A DNA stretch of 64,000 bases, taken from positions 1-64,000 of the forward strand of contig JAFQMF010000014.1 of assembly GCA_017396395.1 (NCBI GenBank). The letters are read 5' to 3'. This document shows positions 1-8,285 of this stretch, one piece after another; positions within the stretch are counted from its first letter, which is position 1; each line of letters opens with the position of its first letter. The notes under the pieces are model-generated. The model saw nothing but the letters and a program-made list of their open reading frames with translations, ran no database searches and had not been told where the DNA came from. The position numbers and the translations under genes were made by a program. Origin of the DNA: Clostridia bacterium. GTDB taxonomy: Bacteria > Bacillota > Clostridia > RUG12999.

Positions 1-2045
1 GTTCATTAGTTTATGAAAAGTGGTATAATTATACAGTAACACTTGGCTATAAAGAAGATGTAGGTCTTACAGTTTCTCTTGGTGCAGATGATACTGCATT
101 TCCTGAAACAACAAATTCTACAACAACACTTCCTTTAACAGTGGATGAGCTTTCTGCTCTTTCTGCTACAGATGTTAGCCTTGTAATTTCTGCCACAGGT
201 AACACACAGATTGCAGGTGCTAACAGATATGTATATATTAAGGATGTTGCTGAAGTAGATAATGGACCATATACAGTTACATTTGAAGGTTTAGGTAAAG
301 GTACACTTACAACAACTTCTGTAGAAGTTGAAAAAGGTGCTACTCTTACATCAGAGCCAACCTTTACATCATATGATAACAATAACTTCTATATCATAGG
401 TTATAAAATTGGTGATACAGCATACACTTGGGACCAGCTTAAGACTCTTCCAATTAACGAAGATACAACAGTAACTGTTCTTATTAAGGAAAAAGCGTTC
501 TCAAACGGCGAATATGATTTTTCTGCTATGACTGCAGATGCACTTAGTGTATCTCCCTTCAGCGGATGGTCTTCAGCTTTTGTTCAGGGTAAAGGTATTG
601 AAATGATGAACTGGCCTTCTAGAAGCCTTGAAGCGAACTTTATTGAAGATACTGCAAATCAGGGTATGGAAATTGAGTTCACATATACTCAGTCAGCAGG
701 TACAGTTCCTTTTGACGCAACTTTCCAGAACAGCTCAAGTGCAACTATTCAGAACTGGTATCAGCAGGCAAATTCCATTTTTGTTAAAGGCAACAATGAT
801 AATGCTGCATTAGAAAATGTGAATGCAGGTGCTGATGGTCAGGAACATACACTTAAGTTTATTATTGATGATACTAATAACAAAATGTACGTTGTAAAAG
901 ACGGCGTTATTGGTGCAACATCAAATCTTGATTCTTATGCAACATTAGCTGACGGACTTATCAAAAAGATTGCTATGACAGCAAAGGGCAGAGTAAATGA
1001 GAATGATTCCTTCGTAATTAAAAAGATTAATATTACAAGATATGCTACAATGACAGCTGCTCCTAAGCTTACTGTTGAAAACGGCGGTGTTGCTAGTGTA
1101 ACCGGCGACAGAATTCTTACAAATGAGATTTATATGCCTGCAGGTACTAAAGCTACACTTATTGCTGATTTATCCGAAGGTCAGAACTTTACAAACTGGA
1201 CAGGTAACGTAGAACCTGCAGATGCAGCAACAACTGTATTCACAATGGGTGACAGAGACGCTACAGTTACTGCAAACAGTGCACTTTCTAAAGTTACTGC
1301 TACATTCGTAGTTGATTCCGAAAAGGCTGATTACGTTGGCGAGCTTGTACAGGAAATTGACTATGGTACAGCTGCTACAGCTCCCACAGTTACAGCTAAA
1401 GAAGGTTACACATTCACAGGTTGGGATGTTGACCCTGCTACAGCAATTACAGAGAATACAACATATACAGCTCAGTTCACTGCTGTTAACAAGTACACTA
1501 TCACATTTGAAGTTGGCGAAAACGGTACTGTAACATTTGGTGATGAAGTGGTTTATGTATTTGAAGGCAATATGCCTACTCCTCCTACAGTAGTTGGTAA
1601 AACAGGCTGGGAATTTAAAGGATGGGATAAAGAAATCGTTGCAGCAACAGGTGATGTAACTTATACAGCTGTATATGAACAAACAATTTCTCCAATTCTT
1701 ACAACAACAGCTGATTCCGGTTACTATGGTGAATTAGATGCTCCTGTAGAAGGCGAAGCTATTTTCAACGTATTCTTTGAAAACTATAACGAATTTGTTA
1801 ATGTTGAAAAGTACGGTATCTTCCTTTATGTATCAGGTATGGAAGAAAACGGTAAGAACCTTGAAGCAGCAACAGCTGACGAACTTGTATCTTCACTTGG
1901 TAAGTTCTATGGTTTAGTAACAGGCATTAACGATTTAGATGCAATAATTATTGGTAAAGCTTTCGTTGTTATTAACGGACAGACACATTATGGAGCTCTT
2001 AAGTCAGTAGCTGTTGATACAGCTAAATGGCTTGGTACAAAATAA
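1..2045 (+). CDS. Large repeat-containing surface protein, 5' end outside window
   Basis: The reading frame is open from base 3 to the stop at 2043-2045, so the start and any signal peptide lie left of the window; 680 residues are visible. The first in-frame start-like codon, GTG 141, is internal. The middle part (about bases 500-1050) looks like a beta-rich, lectin- or laminin-G-like module. Between about 1270 and 1690 are two InlB-type B-repeats (Listeria-Bacteroides repeat, Flg_new), recognisable by GYTFTGWD and GWEFKGWD. A C-terminal region of about 110 residues is unrecognised. No LPXTG sorting motif or C-terminal membrane anchor is seen. The protein is Thr/Ala-rich with very few charged clusters, as expected for a secreted or surface adhesin. 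The next gene starts 35 bases downstream, so the two are probably cotranscribed. Family assignment rests on the repeats; the ligand is unknown. Confidence 0.85.
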   Translation, partial: SLVYEKWYNYTVTLGYKEDVGLTVSLGADDTAFPETTNSTTTLPLTVDELSALSATDVSLVISATGNTQIAGANRYVYIKDVAEVDNGPYTVTFEGLGKGTLTTTSVEVEKGATLTSEPTFTSYDNNNFYIIGYKIGDTAYTWDQLKTLPINEDTTVTVLIKEKAFSNGEYDFSAMTADALSVSPFSGWSSAFVQGKGIEMMNWPSRSLEANFIEDTANQGMEIEFTYTQSAGTVPFDATFQNSSSATIQNWYQQANSIFVKGNNDNAALENVNAGADGQEHTLKFIIDDTNNKMYVVKDGVIGATSNLDSYATLADGLIKKIAMTAKGRVNENDSFVIKKINITRYATMTAAPKLTVENGGVASVTGDRILTNEIYMPAGTKATLIADLSEGQNFTNWTGNVEPADAATTVFTMGDRDATVTANSALSKVTATFVVDSEKADYVGELVQEIDYGTAATAPTVTAKEGYTFTGWDVDPATAITENTTYTAQFTAVNKYTITFEVGENGTVTFGDEVVYVFEGNMPTPPTVVGKTGWEFKGWDKEIVAATGDVTYTAVYEQTISPILTTTADSGYYGELDAPVEGEAIFNVFFENYNEFVNVEKYGIFLYVSGMEENGKNLEAATADELVSSLGKFYGLVTGINDLDAIIIGKAFVVINGQTHYGALKSVAVDTAKWLGTK

Positions 2046-2080: not shown

Positions 2081-2233
2081 ATGAAAAAAGTATTTCAGGC
2101 ACCTGTAGCACAGGTGGTAAAATTCAATGCTCCTGACGTAATTTGCACAAGTACTCCTGTTGAGCCTACTGTTCTTGCTAACAATGGCGGAAACAATATA
2201 GGAACTCAAGATTACGCAGATTTACTTGGCTAA
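2081..2233 (+). CDS. 50-aa small peptide, candidate RiPP precursor
   Basis: The short frame has an ATG at 2081 and a good ribosome site (GAAAGGAG, 2063-2070). The peptide begins MKKVFQAPVAQVVKF and ends in GTQDYADLLG. It has one Cys (residue 22, in DVICTSTP) and a Gly/Asn-rich stretch near residues 34-41. The N-terminal FxxP (FQAP, residues 5-8) resembles the aromatic-x-x-Pro leader motif that PqqD-like recognition proteins bind in lasso precursors. A PqqD-like protein, an HprK-like kinase, a peptidase and an exporter follow in the same operon. The start (MKK, aromatic, xxP) resembles small proteins I have seen often in gut Clostridia and whose role is unclear to me. The gene is supported by its ribosome site, operon position and family-like start; the precursor role is inference. 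Confidence 0.68.
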   Translation: MKKVFQAPVAQVVKFNAPDVICTSTPVEPTVLANNGGNNIGTQDYADLLG

Positions 2234-2268
2234 TTTTTAGGATTATTGAGTAAATGACCTTATGCAAA

Positions 2269-2415
2269 CATAACCACCCGCCAGGCGGGTGGTTATGATT
2301 GTCTAAAGGCTTCTCTGCAGGGAGTGAAGCCTTTAAAAAAGGTATATCAAAAACTAATAAACCCCACTAGAAGGGAAGGGGCTTAATCCTTTCCCTAACC
2401 TTTGGGGAAAGGATT
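2269..2415 (+). other. Three consecutive stem-loops between peptide and enzyme genes
   Basis: Three separate inverted repeats fill this gap. The first has perfect 14-base arms, CATAACCACCCGCC at 2269-2282 and its complement at 2284-2297, and is far more GC-rich than its surroundings. The second pairs AAAGGCTTC 2305-2313 with GAAGCCTTT 2326-2334. The third pairs AATCCTTTCCC 2385-2395 with GGGAAAGGATT 2405-2415. None is followed by a proper T-run, so they are not standard terminators. They could stabilise the 3' end of the peptide message or lower readthrough into the enzyme genes, a common way to make more precursor than enzyme. Confidence 0.7.
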
Positions 2416-2450
2416 AAAAACTACATGACAGATAAAATGGAGGTATATCC

Positions 2451-2891
2451 ATGAAAAAAATTATAGTTTTATTAATGATTTTTATAATGGCAGTATCCAT
2501 TACTGCTTTTGCAACAGAAAATATCAGCGTTTATATAGGCAACAAAAAACTTGAGTTTGATGTACAGCCTCAGTTAATTAATGACAGAACTATGGTACCT
2601 ATGCGTAAAATTTTTGAAAGCTTAGGTGCTGAGGTAACATGGGTTGGAGAGGCAGAAACTATTGTAGCAACTCGTGATTCACAGATTATAGTTATGGAAA
2701 TAGGAAAATTAAGCTTTACCGTTACAGACGTAAAAACTGAAGTAACAAAAGAAGTTATTCTTGATGTTCCCCCTCAGTTAGTAGAGAGCAGAACTCTTGT
2801 TCCTGTTCGTGCCATTTCAGAAACCTTTGGTTATACTGTAAACTGGGATGATGCTACCACAACCGTAACTATTTTAAGACCTGCGGCTTAA
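2451..2891 (+). CDS. Secreted stalk-domain protein (copper amine oxidase N-terminal-like)
   Basis: The 146-residue protein has a signal peptide (MKKIIVLLMIFIMAVSITAFA, written here as residues 1 to about 21, hydrophobic core 4-20). Two copies of the Cu_amine_oxidN1 (stalk) repeat follow: one with RTMVPMRKIFESLGAEVTW, the other with RTLVPVRAISETFGYTVNW. No amine oxidase catalytic domain is present. In Clostridia such domains form small cell-surface modules. The ribosome site GGAGG lies just upstream of ATG 2451. The stop is one base before the kinase gene, so this gene is translationally coupled to the modification cassette, an unusual partner for cytoplasmic enzymes. It may act outside the cell on the exported product or as a wall attachment; its role is unknown. 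Confidence 0.85.
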   Translation: MKKIIVLLMIFIMAVSITAFATENISVYIGNKKLEFDVQPQLINDRTMVPMRKIFESLGAEVTWVGEAETIVATRDSQIIVMEIGKLSFTVTDVKTEVTKEVILDVPPQLVESRTLVPVRAISETFGYTVNWDDATTTVTILRPAA

Positions 2892-2892
2892 T

Positions 2893-3588
2893 ATGTTTTA
2901 TATAAAATTAGCAGACTTAAAAATTAAAATTGAAAATAAATATGAATATATTTCAGATATGTGCAAGGATTATTTAACAGACGGGGGAAATGAAAATTTC
3001 TCCCTTTCTGTCACACAGGAGGAGATACTCCGAGAACAGGCAGGACAGGAAGGATTTCCTTTAGGGTATTTAGAAAGCCTTGCAATTTACCGCAAAATAG
3101 CTGAAATGCTTCCTGCATACGGAGGTTTTTTAATGCATGGTGCGGTAATTACCTATGAGGATACGGGGATAGCTTTTCTTGCACGCTCAGGCGTAGGAAA
3201 GACTACCCATATTGTAAATTGGAAAAAACTATTTGGTGATAAAGTAAAACCTGTTAACGGGGACAAGCCTTTGGTACGGCTTATTGATAACAACGTATTT
3301 GTTTATGGTACGCCCTGGGCAGGAAAAGAAAATGTTCATCGAAACACACGGGCAATACTGAAAAAGATTTGCTTTATTGAAAGAGATGTTAACAGTAGTG
3401 TAACAGAAATCTCTAAAAAAGAGGCATTTGAAAGATTTTTGCCTCAGGTATATCTTGATAAAAACTATACCGCATTTGGAGTTATTGATGAATGTTTTAA
3501 AAAGTGTGAATTTTATTTAATTAAATGTAATAGGGATATTTCGTCAGCACAAACTGCATTTGACGGAATAATGACAAAGGGGTTATAA
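2893..3588 (+). CDS. HprK-like (HPr serine kinase-type) P-loop protein
   Basis: The protein of 231 residues carries the P-loop ARSGVGKTTH at about 97-106, preceded by FLMHGAVI at 79-86, and a downstream GTPWAGKE. This order (hydrophobic strand with HGA, P-loop, then GTPWxGKE) is that of the HprK/PEPCK-like kinases found in peptide-modification clusters, not of housekeeping HprK, which is about 310 residues and has an N-terminal DRTGG domain. Family knowledge: PadeK-type kinases phosphorylate a Ser near the C terminus of lasso precursors. There is no obvious ribosome site before ATG 2893, and the gene appears coupled to the preceding stop. It ends one base before the PqqD gene. A kinase acting on the small peptide at 2081 is inferred; that peptide has one Ser (residue 24) and several Thr. 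Confidence 0.83.
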   Translation: MFYIKLADLKIKIENKYEYISDMCKDYLTDGGNENFSLSVTQEEILREQAGQEGFPLGYLESLAIYRKIAEMLPAYGGFLMHGAVITYEDTGIAFLARSGVGKTTHIVNWKKLFGDKVKPVNGDKPLVRLIDNNVFVYGTPWAGKENVHRNTRAILKKICFIERDVNSSVTEISKKEAFERFLPQVYLDKNYTAFGVIDECFKKCEFYLIKCNRDISSAQTAFDGIMTKGL

Positions 3589-3589
3589 A

Positions 3590-3856
3590 ATGAGAGTAAA
3601 AGAAGGGTTTGTTCTTCATACGGTTTGTGATGAAAATCTTGTTGTTCCAATCGGTAAGGCAACAGAGGAATTTCACGGAATGATAAGGCTTAACGATACA
3701 GGTGCCTTTCTTTGGAAGCTTATGGACTCTGAGTTTTCTAAAGAAACTTTAGTTACGGCACTTCTTTCTGAATATGATGTGGAGCAGAAGGAAGCACAGG
3801 ATACTGTAGAGGCATTTTTGAACAATTTAATAGAAAACGGAATTATACAAAAGTGA
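3590..3856 (+). CDS. PqqD family protein (RiPP recognition element)
   Basis: At 88 residues this is the length of a free-standing PqqD-like chaperone. It shows the family pattern: N-terminal beta strands (GFVLHTVCDENLVVPIG), the signature LNDTGAFLWKLM at about 43-54, then helices ending in LNNLIENGIIQK. Family knowledge: PqqD and the B1 protein of lasso clusters form a winged-helix-like fold that binds the leader of a ribosomal peptide and hands it to modifying enzymes. The stop overlaps the GTG start of the peptidase gene by four bases. Its presence makes a peptide substrate in this operon likely; the best candidate is the gene at 2081. Confidence 0.88.
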   Translation: MRVKEGFVLHTVCDENLVVPIGKATEEFHGMIRLNDTGAFLWKLMDSEFSKETLVTALLSEYDVEQKEAQDTVEAFLNNLIENGIIQK

Positions 3857-4281
3857 AGGAAACAAGTATTAAGCAGGAACTAAAAGAGGGTAAAACCGTA
3901 ATTTATTATACTATGGGTATTAGTATGGAGCCTCTATTAAAGGCAAGAAGAACTCATGTAGTTCTTACACCTGTGTCAAAACCCCAAAAGTACGATATCC
4001 TTCTTTATGAAAGACAAGACGGAAAATATGTTCTTCACAGACTTTTGAATATTAAAAATGACTTTTTTTATATTCGCGGAGACAATACCTTTTACTTGGA
4101 AAAAATTCACCCAAGTCAGATTATAGGTAAAGTATCCAGAGTCTATCGAAATGGAAGATACATAGATGTAGAAAAAAGCTTTATTTACAAGGTATATGTT
4201 TTGGTAAACATATGGAGTTATCCTTTAAGATTTTTCCGTTACAAGCTTAAAAAACTTCGTGCAAGAAAGCAACGGGGGTAA
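3853..4281 (+). CDS. S24/S26 family peptidase, signal-peptidase-like
   Basis: This 142-residue protein starts at GTG 3853, overlapping the PqqD stop. It has the signal-peptidase nucleophile motif GISMEPLL (Ser at residue 24), then YDILLYE, VLHRL with His 62, and the GDN box at 76-78. The position usually held by Lys in bacterial leader peptidase is occupied by His, the Ser-His arrangement of the archaeal/ER and SipW type. There is no clear N-terminal membrane segment; a weakly hydrophobic stretch lies near the C terminus (KVYVLVNIWSYPLRFF) before a Lys/Arg-rich tail. It sits where lasso clusters have the B2 leader protease, so leader removal is a reasonable guess. A LexA-type regulator is less likely because there is no N-terminal DNA-binding domain. 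Confidence 0.82.
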   Translation: MKETSIKQELKEGKTVIYYTMGISMEPLLKARRTHVVLTPVSKPQKYDILLYERQDGKYVLHRLLNIKNDFFYIRGDNTFYLEKIHPSQIIGKVSRVYRNGRYIDVEKSFIYKVYVLVNIWSYPLRFFRYKLKKLRARKQRG

Positions 4282-4288
4282 AATGCTT

Positions 4289-5434
4289 ATGAATAAAAAA
4301 ATATTAAATACAACAAGTGATTTGTTATATTTGGTAAAGTGCGTTTTAAATGGTAATAAGGCTGACAAAAACCTTATCAATACCGAACTAAAAAATATAT
4401 ATTTAATTGCAAAAGCTCACAATCTTTCTGCAATAGTTGCCTATGCTTTTTCAGATATGGATACTCAAGACTTTGCACCTGAAGAGCAAAAGGTAATTTC
4501 AGCCTTTATGGATGAAAAAAATAAGGCTAAGAGGAATATGGTGTTATTTGAGCTTGAGCGTAATGCCCTGACAGACTTTTTTGAGGAGCAGGGCATTTTG
4601 TATATGCTGATGAAGGGTGCGCTGATAAGCAAGCTGTACCCTAAAGCTTTTATGCGTCAGATGGTGGATAACGACATCTGGTTTGATATAGCCTATGGGG
4701 AAAAAGTCATAGAGTGGTTTAAAAATAGGGAATATAATTGTAAAGTGGAAGACACAACTATTCATTATACATTTACTAAAGCACCTGTGCTGAATTTTGA
4801 ACTGCATTATGCTCCTTTATTTGCTAAATTCTGGAACAACACTTTTCATGAGTACTATAAAGAAAAATTTGAAAACCTTATAGCTAATCATAAAGAAGGT
4901 TGTGTCCTTAAATTTTCAGATGAAGATTTTTTTGTTTATATTTTTGCACATGCATATAAGCACTACAGCAACAGAGGTACAGGACTTCGCACCCTTGTGG
5001 ATATTTACCTTTTAAACAAAGAATATTCTAAAAAAATTAATATGGAATATGTAAATCAGCAATTTGAAATTCTTGGTATAACGGAGTTTGCAAATGATAT
5101 TATAAACCTTACGCATACTATCTTTCAAGGAAATGGAAATTTAAATAATAAACAAAAAAATATCCTTTCATTTGTTTCAGTAAGCAATGCTTACGGAAAC
5201 AGCTACTCCATGGAATTAAACAAAATTAAGAAAGTAACAAACAGTTCAGCTAAAATTAATATATTTGTTAAGATTAAATATATTTTAAAGCGAATTTTCC
5301 CAAGTGTTAAAAATTTAGATATAAAATATAAAAATGAGAAAAAATATAAAATTCCCATAATTTACATATGCAGATTTGTACGGGGATTTGGACGTGGGCT
5401 GAAAGAGTTAAAATCAATTATTAAAATAAAGTAA
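4289..5434 (+). CDS. Nucleotidyltransferase family protein, copy 1 (NTP_transf_5-like)
   Basis: I chose ATG 4289 because the resulting 381-residue protein aligns from its first residue with the neighbouring paralogue (both reach the Cys of YLVKC/YLIDC at residue 18) and because GGGGG at 4274-4278 is 10 bases upstream; ATG 4283 and GTG 4259 are also in frame. The core is MLMKGALISKLYP followed by FMRQMVDNDIWFD (about 106-133), the KG and D-x-D signature of the uncharacterised nucleotidyltransferase family PF14907. The C-terminal 100 residues are Lys-rich. Related proteins occur in lasso clusters and have been linked to nucleotide-type modification of peptides. The substrate is unknown. Confidence 0.85.
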   Translation: MNKKILNTTSDLLYLVKCVLNGNKADKNLINTELKNIYLIAKAHNLSAIVAYAFSDMDTQDFAPEEQKVISAFMDEKNKAKRNMVLFELERNALTDFFEEQGILYMLMKGALISKLYPKAFMRQMVDNDIWFDIAYGEKVIEWFKNREYNCKVEDTTIHYTFTKAPVLNFELHYAPLFAKFWNNTFHEYYKEKFENLIANHKEGCVLKFSDEDFFVYIFAHAYKHYSNRGTGLRTLVDIYLLNKEYSKKINMEYVNQQFEILGITEFANDIINLTHTIFQGNGNLNNKQKNILSFVSVSNAYGNSYSMELNKIKKVTNSSAKINIFVKIKYILKRIFPSVKNLDIKYKNEKKYKIPIIYICRFVRGFGRGLKELKSIIKIK

Positions 5435-5450
5435 GGGTTATGCAATAATT

Positions 5451-6590
5451 ATGACGGAACAATTATTTGTTGTTATGCAAGATATAGTTTATCTTATAGA
5501 TTGCGTTTCAATGGAAAAGAAAGCTGATATTTCTCGGCTTAAATGCCAACTTAATACTATTTATAATTTTGCTAAACTAAACAGCTTATCGGCACTGATA
5601 GCCTATGCTTTTGAGGATGCTTTAAAATATTCTGACAGGGACAAGTCTGCTATTGTAGCATTTGAAGAAGAAAAAAACATAGCTATGCGTAATATGGTGC
5701 TCTTTGAACTGGAAAGAAATTGTCTTGTTGATTTTTTAAAGAAAAACGACATATTTCATATGATACTTAAAGGGGTACATATAAGCGATTTATATCCAAA
5801 ACCTTTTATGCGTCAGGTGGCAGACAATGATATCTGGTTTGACAAGTCATATGAAAATCAGGTTGTCAGCTGGTTTAAGGACAGGGGATATACTTGTAAA
5901 ATGAACGCTCCCGTTCATTATGAATTCACAAAAGAACCAGTGCTTAACTTTGAAATGCATCACACCTCTCTTTTTTCAAAAAGCGGATATGATGTTTTCT
6001 ATGAATATTATAACGAAAAGCTTCAAAGCCTTGTTTTAAACAGCAAAGACTTTCAACTGAATTTTTCTGATGAAGATTTTTATGTGTATATAATTTGTCA
6101 CAGTTATAAGCATTATACTGAGGCAGGGACAGGCTTTCGAACATTAGTTGATTTGTTTTTCTTAAATAAAAAACTTTCAGAAAAGCTTAATCGTGATTAT
6201 ATAGACAGTCAGCTTAAAAAGCTGGGCATTTACGATTTCGAACAAAGCTTGCAGGAAATTTGCAAAGCGGTTTTCTTAAAGAAAAGCTTAGATGAAAAAA
6301 ATAAAAAAATGCTTTTGTACATATTAAACGCAGGAACTTATGGAGATAGAGTTACCAATATGTCCAACAAAATAAAAAGGGTAACGGGGGGAAAGGTTAA
6401 TGCCTTTACAAAGGCTAAATATATTCTTTCAAGAGTGTTTCCAAAGCCTGAAATAATTAAGGAAAGATATGGTAAAATAGGTATAGTGTTATTACCTGTA
6501 TTTTACTTAATTCGTATTTTGCAGTGCATTTTTAAGGGATTTTCAAAAGGGTTAAATGAAATCAGGTGGATTTTAAAGGCAAAACAATAG
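5451..6590 (+). CDS. Nucleotidyltransferase family protein, copy 2 (NTP_transf_5-like)
   Basis: At 379 residues it is a tandem paralogue of the gene just upstream. Shared blocks run through the whole length, for example NMVLFELERN, LYPKxFMRQ, DNDIWFD, EPVLNFE against APVLNFE, FSDEDF, and GTGxRTLVD. The catalytic-looking KG (107-108) and DNDIWFD (125-131) are intact in both copies, so neither looks like a decaying duplicate. The start ATG 5451 lies 16 bases after the previous stop. Two active copies suggest two modification sites or a heterodimer; this is inference. The product has no membrane segments and should be cytoplasmic. Confidence 0.85.
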   Translation: MTEQLFVVMQDIVYLIDCVSMEKKADISRLKCQLNTIYNFAKLNSLSALIAYAFEDALKYSDRDKSAIVAFEEEKNIAMRNMVLFELERNCLVDFLKKNDIFHMILKGVHISDLYPKPFMRQVADNDIWFDKSYENQVVSWFKDRGYTCKMNAPVHYEFTKEPVLNFEMHHTSLFSKSGYDVFYEYYNEKLQSLVLNSKDFQLNFSDEDFYVYIICHSYKHYTEAGTGFRTLVDLFFLNKKLSEKLNRDYIDSQLKKLGIYDFEQSLQEICKAVFLKKSLDEKNKKMLLYILNAGTYGDRVTNMSNKIKRVTGGKVNAFTKAKYILSRVFPKPEIIKERYGKIGIVLLPVFYLIRILQCIFKGFSKGLNEIRWILKAKQ

Positions 6591-6599
6591 GAGTTTGGT

Positions 6600-8285
6600 A
6601 TGAAAAATTCTACAGTAAAAAGACTTTCAAAGGTTATTGGAAAATACAAGTTTAATATTTTAGTTCTTAGTATTATACAGCTTATCAGCGGTGTAATTAC
6701 TGTATATTTTGCACTAGCTATGAAGCAGACAGTGGATTTTGCAGTGAGCAAAAGTGCTGAGGGATTTAAAATTTCCTTTATATCCCTGATTTCTCTTGTT
6801 ATATTTCAAATTTTATTGCATGTGTTTGCAAGATATTTTTACGAGCTTACCCTTGCAAATGTTGAAAACAGGTTTCAGTCAAGACTATTTGAAACACTTT
6901 TAAACAAGGATTTTTCTGCTGTTACCGCTTTCCACTCAGGAGAATGGATGAACAGACTTACTTCAGATGTTTCAATTGTAACATCAAGCGTTGTTAATAT
7001 TATACCCTCTGCAGTAGGTATGATTGTGCGTCTTACAGGTGCACTTATAGTTATTGTGGCACTGGAGCCTAAATTTTTGTTATTTTTGTTGCCTTGCGGA
7101 TTAGGCGTAGCATTATTCAGCTTTTTATTACGAAAAAAAATGAAGAAAATGCATAAAAATGTTCGCGAAGCAGACGGAAGGCTCAGAGGATATTTACAGG
7201 AACAGTTAACAAGCGGTGTACTTATAAGATGTTTTGGTGCTCAGAAAGACACCCTTTCTAAAGCAAAGGGTTATATGGGAGAATATAAAAGAGAGAGAAT
7301 TAAAAAAAGCAATTTTTCAAACGCTGCAAATGTTCTTCTTTCTGTTGGTGTAAACGCACTTTATTTAATGGGACTGGGTTTTTCCTGCGTGCGTCTTTTA
7401 GCAGGAAGTATTACATATGGTACACTGACAGCACTATTACAGCTGGTGGGTCAGCTTCAGTCTCCTGTAATAGGTCTTACGGGAATTATACCAAGATTTT
7501 ACAGTATGATTGCAAGTGCAGAGCGTCTTAATGAGGCAGAGGATTTTCCAGAGGATATTTCAGAAACTTTAATGGAATATGCTCCTGTAATGGAGTATTT
7601 TAATAAGGATTTTTTACAGATACAGTTTAATAATGTAAGCTTTGCATATCCGGGTTCTGAGGAAGATGAGGTAACCCATAATGCTAACTTAACCATAAAT
7701 AAAGGGGATTGTGTTGCTTTAGTAGGTTATTCAGGCAGCGGAAAATCCACTTTAATCAAGCTGTTGTTATCCTTGTATTCGCCAACTAAAGGTGAGATTG
7801 TTTTAAAAGATAATAAAGGGGAAAGTATTCCTCTTACAGGAGCTTGGAGAAGGCTTTTTGCCTATGTTCCGCAGGATAACAGGCTTACCAGTGGGTCAAT
7901 ACGTGATGCCGTAGCTTTTTCAAGACCAAATGAAAGAGATAATGACAGCAAAATAATAGAGGCATTAAAGGTAGCATCTGCAGATGAGTTTGTATTAAGC
8001 TTGCCAAAGGGAATAGATAGTATGCTAAGTGAGTGCGGTGGCGGAATATCCGAAGGGCAGATGCAGAGAATTGCAGTTGCAAGGGCTGTTTTTTCTGAAA
8101 GTCCCATACTTCTTCTTGACGAGGCGACCAGTGCACTTGACGGAAAGACAGAAAGCAGGCTTTTAGAAAATATAAAAAATATGACAGATAAAACGGTGCT
8201 TTTAATTGCTCACAGGCCCGCAGCACTGGAAATCTGCAATAAGATATATGATGTAAGTGATAATGGAATAAATCAAATTAAGTAA
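6600..8285 (+). CDS. ABC exporter, fused permease and ATPase
   Basis: The 561-residue half-transporter has an N-terminal membrane domain with about six hydrophobic segments (residues 15-300) and a C-terminal ATPase: Walker A GYSGSGKST at 376-384, PQDN Q-loop region, signature ISEGQMQR at about 484, Walker B LLLDEATSALD and the switch histidine in IAHRP. It has the type I exporter (MsbA/LmrA/McjD) layout, and lacks the N-terminal C39 peptidase found in many bacteriocin exporters, so leader removal would need the separate S24/S26-type peptidase. GGAG lies upstream of ATG 6600, nine bases after the previous stop. It closes the cassette and probably exports its product as a homodimer. A plain multidrug exporter is the alternative. 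Confidence 0.88.
   Translation: MKNSTVKRLSKVIGKYKFNILVLSIIQLISGVITVYFALAMKQTVDFAVSKSAEGFKISFISLISLVIFQILLHVFARYFYELTLANVENRFQSRLFETLLNKDFSAVTAFHSGEWMNRLTSDVSIVTSSVVNIIPSAVGMIVRLTGALIVIVALEPKFLLFLLPCGLGVALFSFLLRKKMKKMHKNVREADGRLRGYLQEQLTSGVLIRCFGAQKDTLSKAKGYMGEYKRERIKKSNFSNAANVLLSVGVNALYLMGLGFSCVRLLAGSITYGTLTALLQLVGQLQSPVIGLTGIIPRFYSMIASAERLNEAEDFPEDISETLMEYAPVMEYFNKDFLQIQFNNVSFAYPGSEEDEVTHNANLTINKGDCVALVGYSGSGKSTLIKLLLSLYSPTKGEIVLKDNKGESIPLTGAWRRLFAYVPQDNRLTSGSIRDAVAFSRPNERDNDSKIIEALKVASADEFVLSLPKGIDSMLSECGGGISEGQMQRIAVARAVFSESPILLLDEATSALDGKTESRLLENIKNMTDKTVLLIAHRPAALEICNKIYDVSDNGINQIK

Follow-up and report, generated by a model that had tools for sequence, protein, structure and literature searches.

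Linear polyphosphorylated peptides (LPPs) are RiPPs described by Popov et al. in 2026 (PMC13381572), and their biosynthetic set consists of an HprK-like kinase, a PqqD-like RRE, a SipW-like leader protease, an NTP transferase and an MsbA-like exporter. In this pathway LppK phosphorylates the precursor LppA repeatedly at S3, the S3T substitution abolishing phosphorylation, LppS acting with LppB cuts LppA after T-1, i.e. with the Ser downstream of the cut, and no activity was seen for LppN (PMC13381572). The role of these peptides is stated as unknown by the describing paper, whose main text makes no mention of 'surface', 'secreted', 'orphan' or 'Clostridi' (PMC13381572). PsmN, an enzyme with a nucleotidyltransferase annotation, adds hexoses to a phosphorylated lasso peptide (PMC9266682).

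The locus considered here belongs to a gut-type Clostridia genome carrying the LPP enzyme kit (Clostridia bacterium, contig JAFQMF010000014.1), and it lies at the beginning of the window, by which we mean the whole stretch of 64,000 nucleotides that was analysed. Base 1 of the window is the first base of its contig, so that nothing can be read leftwards and the left flank is missing. The features are the following:

3..2045, + strand, C-terminal part (680 aa) of a large protein (PF18998, 1e-9; PF09479, 7e-8)
2081..2233, + strand, precursor peptide of 50 aa, MKKVFQAPVAQVVKFNAPDVICTSTPVEPTVLANNGGNNIGTQDYADLLG (family model A3, E=3.7e-11)
2093..2104, + strand, F5-x-x-P8, predicted RRE-binding motif of the leader, counterpart of the LppA YxxP (PMC13381572)
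2144..2152, + strand, C22-T23-S24, predicted leader cut after C22 and predicted phosphorylation of Ser24, by inference from LppA
2269..2297, + strand, hairpin 1 (13 bp), behind the peptide gene (z=-5.6 vs shuffles)
2304..2335, + strand, hairpin 2 (z=-2.7 vs shuffles)
2383..2417, + strand, hairpin 3 (16 bp), ahead of the enzyme genes (z=-3.9 vs shuffles)
2451..2891, + strand, stalk-domain protein, copper amine oxidase N-terminal domain (PF07833, 4e-33)
2893..3588, + strand, HprK-like kinase, LppK-like (AlphaFold2 model; H82, P-loop K103 and D124 invariant in relatives)
3590..3856, + strand, PqqD-like RRE, LppB-like (PF05402, 9e-18)
3853..4281, + strand, SipW/SEC11-like S26 peptidase, LppS-like (weak TIGR02228 match, 5e-6)
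4283 or 4289..5434, + strand, PF14907 nucleotidyltransferase 1, LppN/PsmN-like (PF14907, 9e-34; DND motif)
5451..6590, + strand, PF14907 nucleotidyltransferase 2 (PF14907, 3e-30; DND motif)
6600..8285, + strand, MsbA-like ABC exporter, LppD-like (PF00664, PF00005; TIGR02204, 1e-76, under its cut-off)

The order given in the preliminary description, from the small peptide through the stalk-domain protein, kinase, PqqD-like protein, S26 peptidase and both PF14907 enzymes to the exporter, is borne out for every gene, and its gaps of 1 and 1 bases, an overlap, and 7, 16 and 9 bases are correct provided that nucleotidyltransferase 1 starts at 4289. All LPP functions, namely kinase, discrete RRE, SpI-type S26 peptidase, NTP transferase and MsbA-like exporter, come together at this locus; the proposal that it represented an undescribed system no longer holds, since the same gene set was published in May 2026, with experiments, as LPP (PMC13381572). 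The kinase has no Pfam match and, used as a single-sequence query in a scan of genome contigs, gave none there; its AlphaFold2 model (pLDDT 95) matches the PEPCK/HprK fold. Among solved structures the RRE finds its best PDB match in LppB (9x8z_B, E=3.8e-6) and a weaker one in the paeninodin RRE (4.5e-4), its residues N35, Y62, T72 and F76 aligning with N33, Y60, D70 and F74 of LppB. The S26 enzyme aligns with archaeal/ER-type signal peptidases and has Ser24, His62, Asp77 (in GDN) and Glu83, the Ser, His and GD motifs being invariant in 13 relatives. It shares with SipW/SEC11 (S26, Ser-His type) the Ser of GxSMxP, the His of LHR and the GDN motif, but it has no evident N-terminal membrane helix and is encoded with an RRE, whose presented leader it would be expected to cut. 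The two PF14907 enzymes are the only ones in the source genome, the ABC exporter has no peptidase domain, and the stalk-domain protein, which has an N-terminal signal-like stretch, heads the enzyme gene group; in one subgroup (six loci) a stalk-domain gene likewise adjoins the kinase.

Other arrangements of these enzymes were observed elsewhere in the class. At two loci (L061 and L064) a single frame of about 520 aa contains both the S26 domain and a PF14907 enzyme, apparently as a fusion, and other fusions are suggested by an S26 domain sharing a 755-aa frame with the exporter (L071) and by another within a 993-aa frame (L066). Longer HprK-like kinases of about 297 aa, with NDD replacing the NGDKP motif, form a second widespread class found at L004 and in many genomes of the class; at L004 the kinase is paired with PqqD and none of the peptide family was seen.

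Paeninodin-type and pseudomycoidin lasso systems resemble the locus in their HprK-like kinase, PqqD-like B1 protein, nucleotidyltransferase, ABC exporter and [YW]xxP leader, and differ from it in that the window is without the macrolactam synthetase and the transglutaminase-like B2 protease. This absence, noticed in the preliminary description, extends to other genomes: the B2 domain (PF13471) has no match in 20 cassette genomes, and the suggestion that a signal-peptidase-like enzyme stands in for B2 is likewise supported. As for the cyclase, the source genome has only two weak PF00733 matches, both on another contig, matches elsewhere are weak or distant and none lies inside a cassette, and an Asn-synthetase query found no match in the 121 stretches examined. 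A lasso cyclase or B2 acting in trans, sought and not found, was therefore rejected, and the idea that this is a genuine lasso system with both enzymes encoded elsewhere, to which the common accessory enzymes and leader motif might lead, is hardly credible.

The enzyme set has a wide distribution, and its joint recurrence goes well beyond chance. In a sample of 391 genomes of the same class the kinase occurs in 102, the S26 enzyme in 108 and both together in 94 (p=1e-64), and the peptide family defined below accompanies the kinase in 46 (p=1e-28) and the S26 enzyme in 45 (p=2e-25) of 48 genomes, these p-values overstating independence since the sampled genomes are related. Of 80 named Clostridia loci, which include Oscillospiraceae, Lachnospiraceae, Faecalibacterium, Ruminococcus and Blautia, 55 have PqqD and 52 have S26 no further than 8 kb from the kinase, and the kinase-PqqD-S26 combination, often with PF14907 and the exporter, recurs across many families. 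Kinase, S26, PF14907 and peptide are all absent together from three genomes of the same genus.

The new part of the system is the peptide family, which no Pfam or NCBIfam model recognises. A model built on five sequences found it in 40 of the 391 genomes and one built on 52 sequences in 48, with up to 20 copies per genome (20, 19, 16 and 15 in G216, G359, G025 and G024); the window peptide, preceded by the ribosome-binding site GAAAGGAG, is the sole copy that model A3 found in its genome. The family follows the motif [YF]xxP..F...D[IV][IL][TCA]xS and then a variable tail. Among 79 unique members the leader aromatic is Tyr in 60 and Phe in 17 (Y/F in 77/77), the leader Pro is kept in 57/78, F15 in 69/79 and D19 in 73/79, position 22 is T, C or A in 70/78 and position 24 is Ser in 73/78, with one Thr, conservation giving way to variability beyond it. 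In about half of the genomes with both kinase and S26 the model detected no peptide, which means either that there are leaders of other kinds or that the link is not complete. Many peptides of unrelated families, at nine loci, have in common a tail motif [IVED]xLP or ELP (e.g. GVILPDEE, GIELPPDWV, GELPFVPAE and NELPILPAN). A local subtype whose tails are rich in Cys, Trp and Asn, CGHWSNQNHVSCYYDL being an example, lies near or behind S26 without a secreted partner at four loci of Faecalibacterium and relatives and at one of Blautia.

The sharp end of conservation after Ser24 bears on the place of the cut. Together with the small residues at -3 and -1, which would match the signal peptidase -3/-1 rule, it might indicate that in this same pathway the S26 enzyme cuts after the conserved Ser of [TCA]xS and that another residue is phosphorylated. 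We think this somewhat unlikely, as the near-invariance of Ser at position 24 is what a phospho-acceptor would show, and in the LPP pathway phosphorylation is lost in LppA S3T and LppS leaves the Ser on the downstream side of its cut after Thr (PMC13381572). Cleavage after [TCA] and phosphorylation of the Ser two residues further on would thus be the preferred assignment.

Leader and RRE vary together. The structure of LppB with its leader shows a hydrogen bond between D70 of the RRE and the leader Tyr (PMC13381572). We aligned the RREs to LppB and read the leader aromatic from the HMM alignment. The position of D70 is Asp in 28 of 32 RREs of genomes with Tyr leaders, whereas 8 of the 10 RREs from Phe-leader genomes have another residue there (p=1.5e-4, only indicative as the genomes are related, yet the Phe leaders occur in several families). 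The window pair combines a leader Phe with a Thr in the RRE (T72), and of the two exceptions among Phe leaders one concerns an additional RRE (L095), the RRE next to the peptide in that genome having Ser. This covariation includes genomes in which the peptides lie far from the enzymes.

Such separation turned out to be common. The expectation that a small peptide gene would always sit beside the enzymes failed, as one lies within 8 kb in only 22 of the 80 named loci; this is because the peptides are dispersed, usually behind genes for secreted proteins, and in multi-copy genomes they are mostly on contigs other than those of the enzymes. Among 53 peptide genes with flanks, 46 follow a larger same-strand gene at a distance of no more than 50 bp, most often 12-25 bp. 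The partners with a complete N-terminus look secreted, by a simple signal-peptide heuristic, in 31 of 35 cases, as against 54 of 216 other genes of the same stretches (p=6e-13), the N-terminus of the window partner not being visible. Partner domains comprise InlB-type repeats, laminin-G-like lectin, BspA LRR, Ig-like, pectinesterase and GDSL domains, and neither LPxTG nor a recognised anchor Pfam domain was found in them. Among the papers searched, none dealt with precursors being dispersed or having secreted partners. Taken together, the placement of most peptide genes right behind secreted-protein genes hints that the peptides work at the cell surface.

The window shows a similar picture. 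The large protein whose frame is open at the contig start, its N-terminus lying beyond the contig end, carries InlB-type/Listeria-Bacteroides repeats, ends 35 bp upstream of the peptide gene and is presumably the secreted partner of the 50-aa peptide. Between the peptide and the stalk-domain gene there are three strong hairpins in 150 bp (2269-2417), exceeding the needs of one terminator; the peptide therefore probably belongs with the upstream gene, and we infer that it is co-transcribed with the large repeat protein rather than with the enzymes.

It could be argued from their place directly behind large genes that the small ORFs are coupled regulatory ORFs of surface-protein genes and not precursors for these enzymes. 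We hold this to be very improbable in view of a leader conserved at protein level with its RRE-binding motif, the near-perfect co-occurrence with the enzymes and the Y/F-RRE covariation. Codon changes point the same way in one comparison of G025 copies, where 8 synonymous differences stand against 2 non-synonymous ones, the remaining G025 pairs being less clear (6:4 and 1:2).

A further alternative is that the peptides are secreted signals or bacteriocins of an LPP pathway, adjacency merely coupling their expression to that of the neighbouring protein, for instance to report its production. Variable tails, many copies and a RiPP-type biosynthesis would suit such products, as would the Faecalibacterium-type peptides of four loci, which lie behind S26, have Cys-rich tails and no secreted partner, and which also speak against the explanation favoured below. 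No recurring immunity or receptor gene is evident in the neighbourhood maps, however, and the association with secreted proteins is found in many different families, so that we regard this alternative as rather unlikely.

Other relations between peptide and partner were also considered. A single C-terminal domain common to all partners is unsupported, several classes being present, and tails copying the partner C-terminus in general were rejected, the value being 18.15 for true pairs and 18.15 for other-genome pairs (z=0.0). No fused peptide-partner protein was found. Ruminococcus flavefaciens Y1 has eight peptides, and in two types of site there the C-terminus of a lipoprotein is nearly identical to the sequence of the adjacent peptide. 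These lipoproteins (three loci) have a Thr/Ser/Ala-rich linker, and the shared last 10-12 residues read PIELPLVPLR in both, or DDGLEWSPLTPI vs DDGLNWSPLTPI (DDGL[EN]WSPLTPI). Since the tail of a lipoprotein should lie outside the membrane, this likeness accords with the peptide tail having a role outside the cell.

We consider it probable that the locus encodes a variant of LPP biosynthesis belonging to Clostridia, with precursors that act in trans and are produced alongside secreted proteins having no anchor. By homology to LPP, its biosynthetic steps are likely to be binding, phosphorylation, cleavage and export: the PqqD-like RRE would bind the FxxP/YxxP motif of the precursor, the HprK-like kinase would (poly)phosphorylate the conserved Ser found two positions downstream of [TCA], the SipW-like S26 enzyme would remove the leader, most likely after [TCA], and the ABC exporter would release a linear peptide. 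A linear phosphorylated product, as put forward in the preliminary description, is thus the outcome expected from this homology. The two PF14907 enzymes are hypothesized to add a sugar or a nucleotide to the phosphate. In relatives one enzyme set would serve precursors encoded elsewhere, mostly right behind a Sec-secreted protein without a recognised wall anchor; the mature peptide is therefore probably active extracellularly, accompanying this protein, a surface role which we offer as a hypothesis with a specific genomic basis. It is tempting to speculate further on a genome-wide surface system in which a single trans-acting enzyme set makes many phospho(glyco)peptides, each the dedicated partner or tether of the anchorless protein encoded upstream, and this we take as possible though not probable. 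Its logic would be comparable to that of sortase/exosortase substrates, except that a separate peptide would carry the tag.

The pairing of precursors with secreted proteins suggests a testable cell-surface role for LPPs in gut and rumen Clostridia, whose carriers include cultured species such as R. flavefaciens Y1. The dispersal also indicates that the genes for LPP-class precursors may lie at a great distance from those of their enzymes, where they would escape mining that relies on gene clusters. We provide here a peptide family that the existing Pfam and NCBIfam models leave uncovered.

Compared with LPP, the window system has likewise no cyclase or B2 of its own (the left flank missing in the source genome), a YxxP-type leader motif, which reads FxxP in the window peptide and Y/FxxP across the family, a T at the cut with a downstream Ser, and a variable tail. 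It differs in its host, a member of the Clostridia, the main text of the LPP paper centring on Bacilli, and in the addition of a stalk-domain gene and a second NTP transferase. The family leader, F/YxxP..F...D[IV][IL][TCA]xS, departs from the LPP leader, YxxPxVLxHQxIxFETxxS: it does not follow the Px9Fx[T/A] spacing, its Phe standing at P+7 and T/C/A at about P+14, and its Ser is at +2 instead of +3. This leader spacing is the reason for calling the system a variant and not a plain member of the LPP class. Where an LPP cluster has 1-3 precursors, a genome with this peptide family may have up to 20, scattered behind genes for secreted proteins. The enzyme set is of a known kind, that of LPP, found in another lineage, where the arrangement of the precursors in the genome is clearly different.
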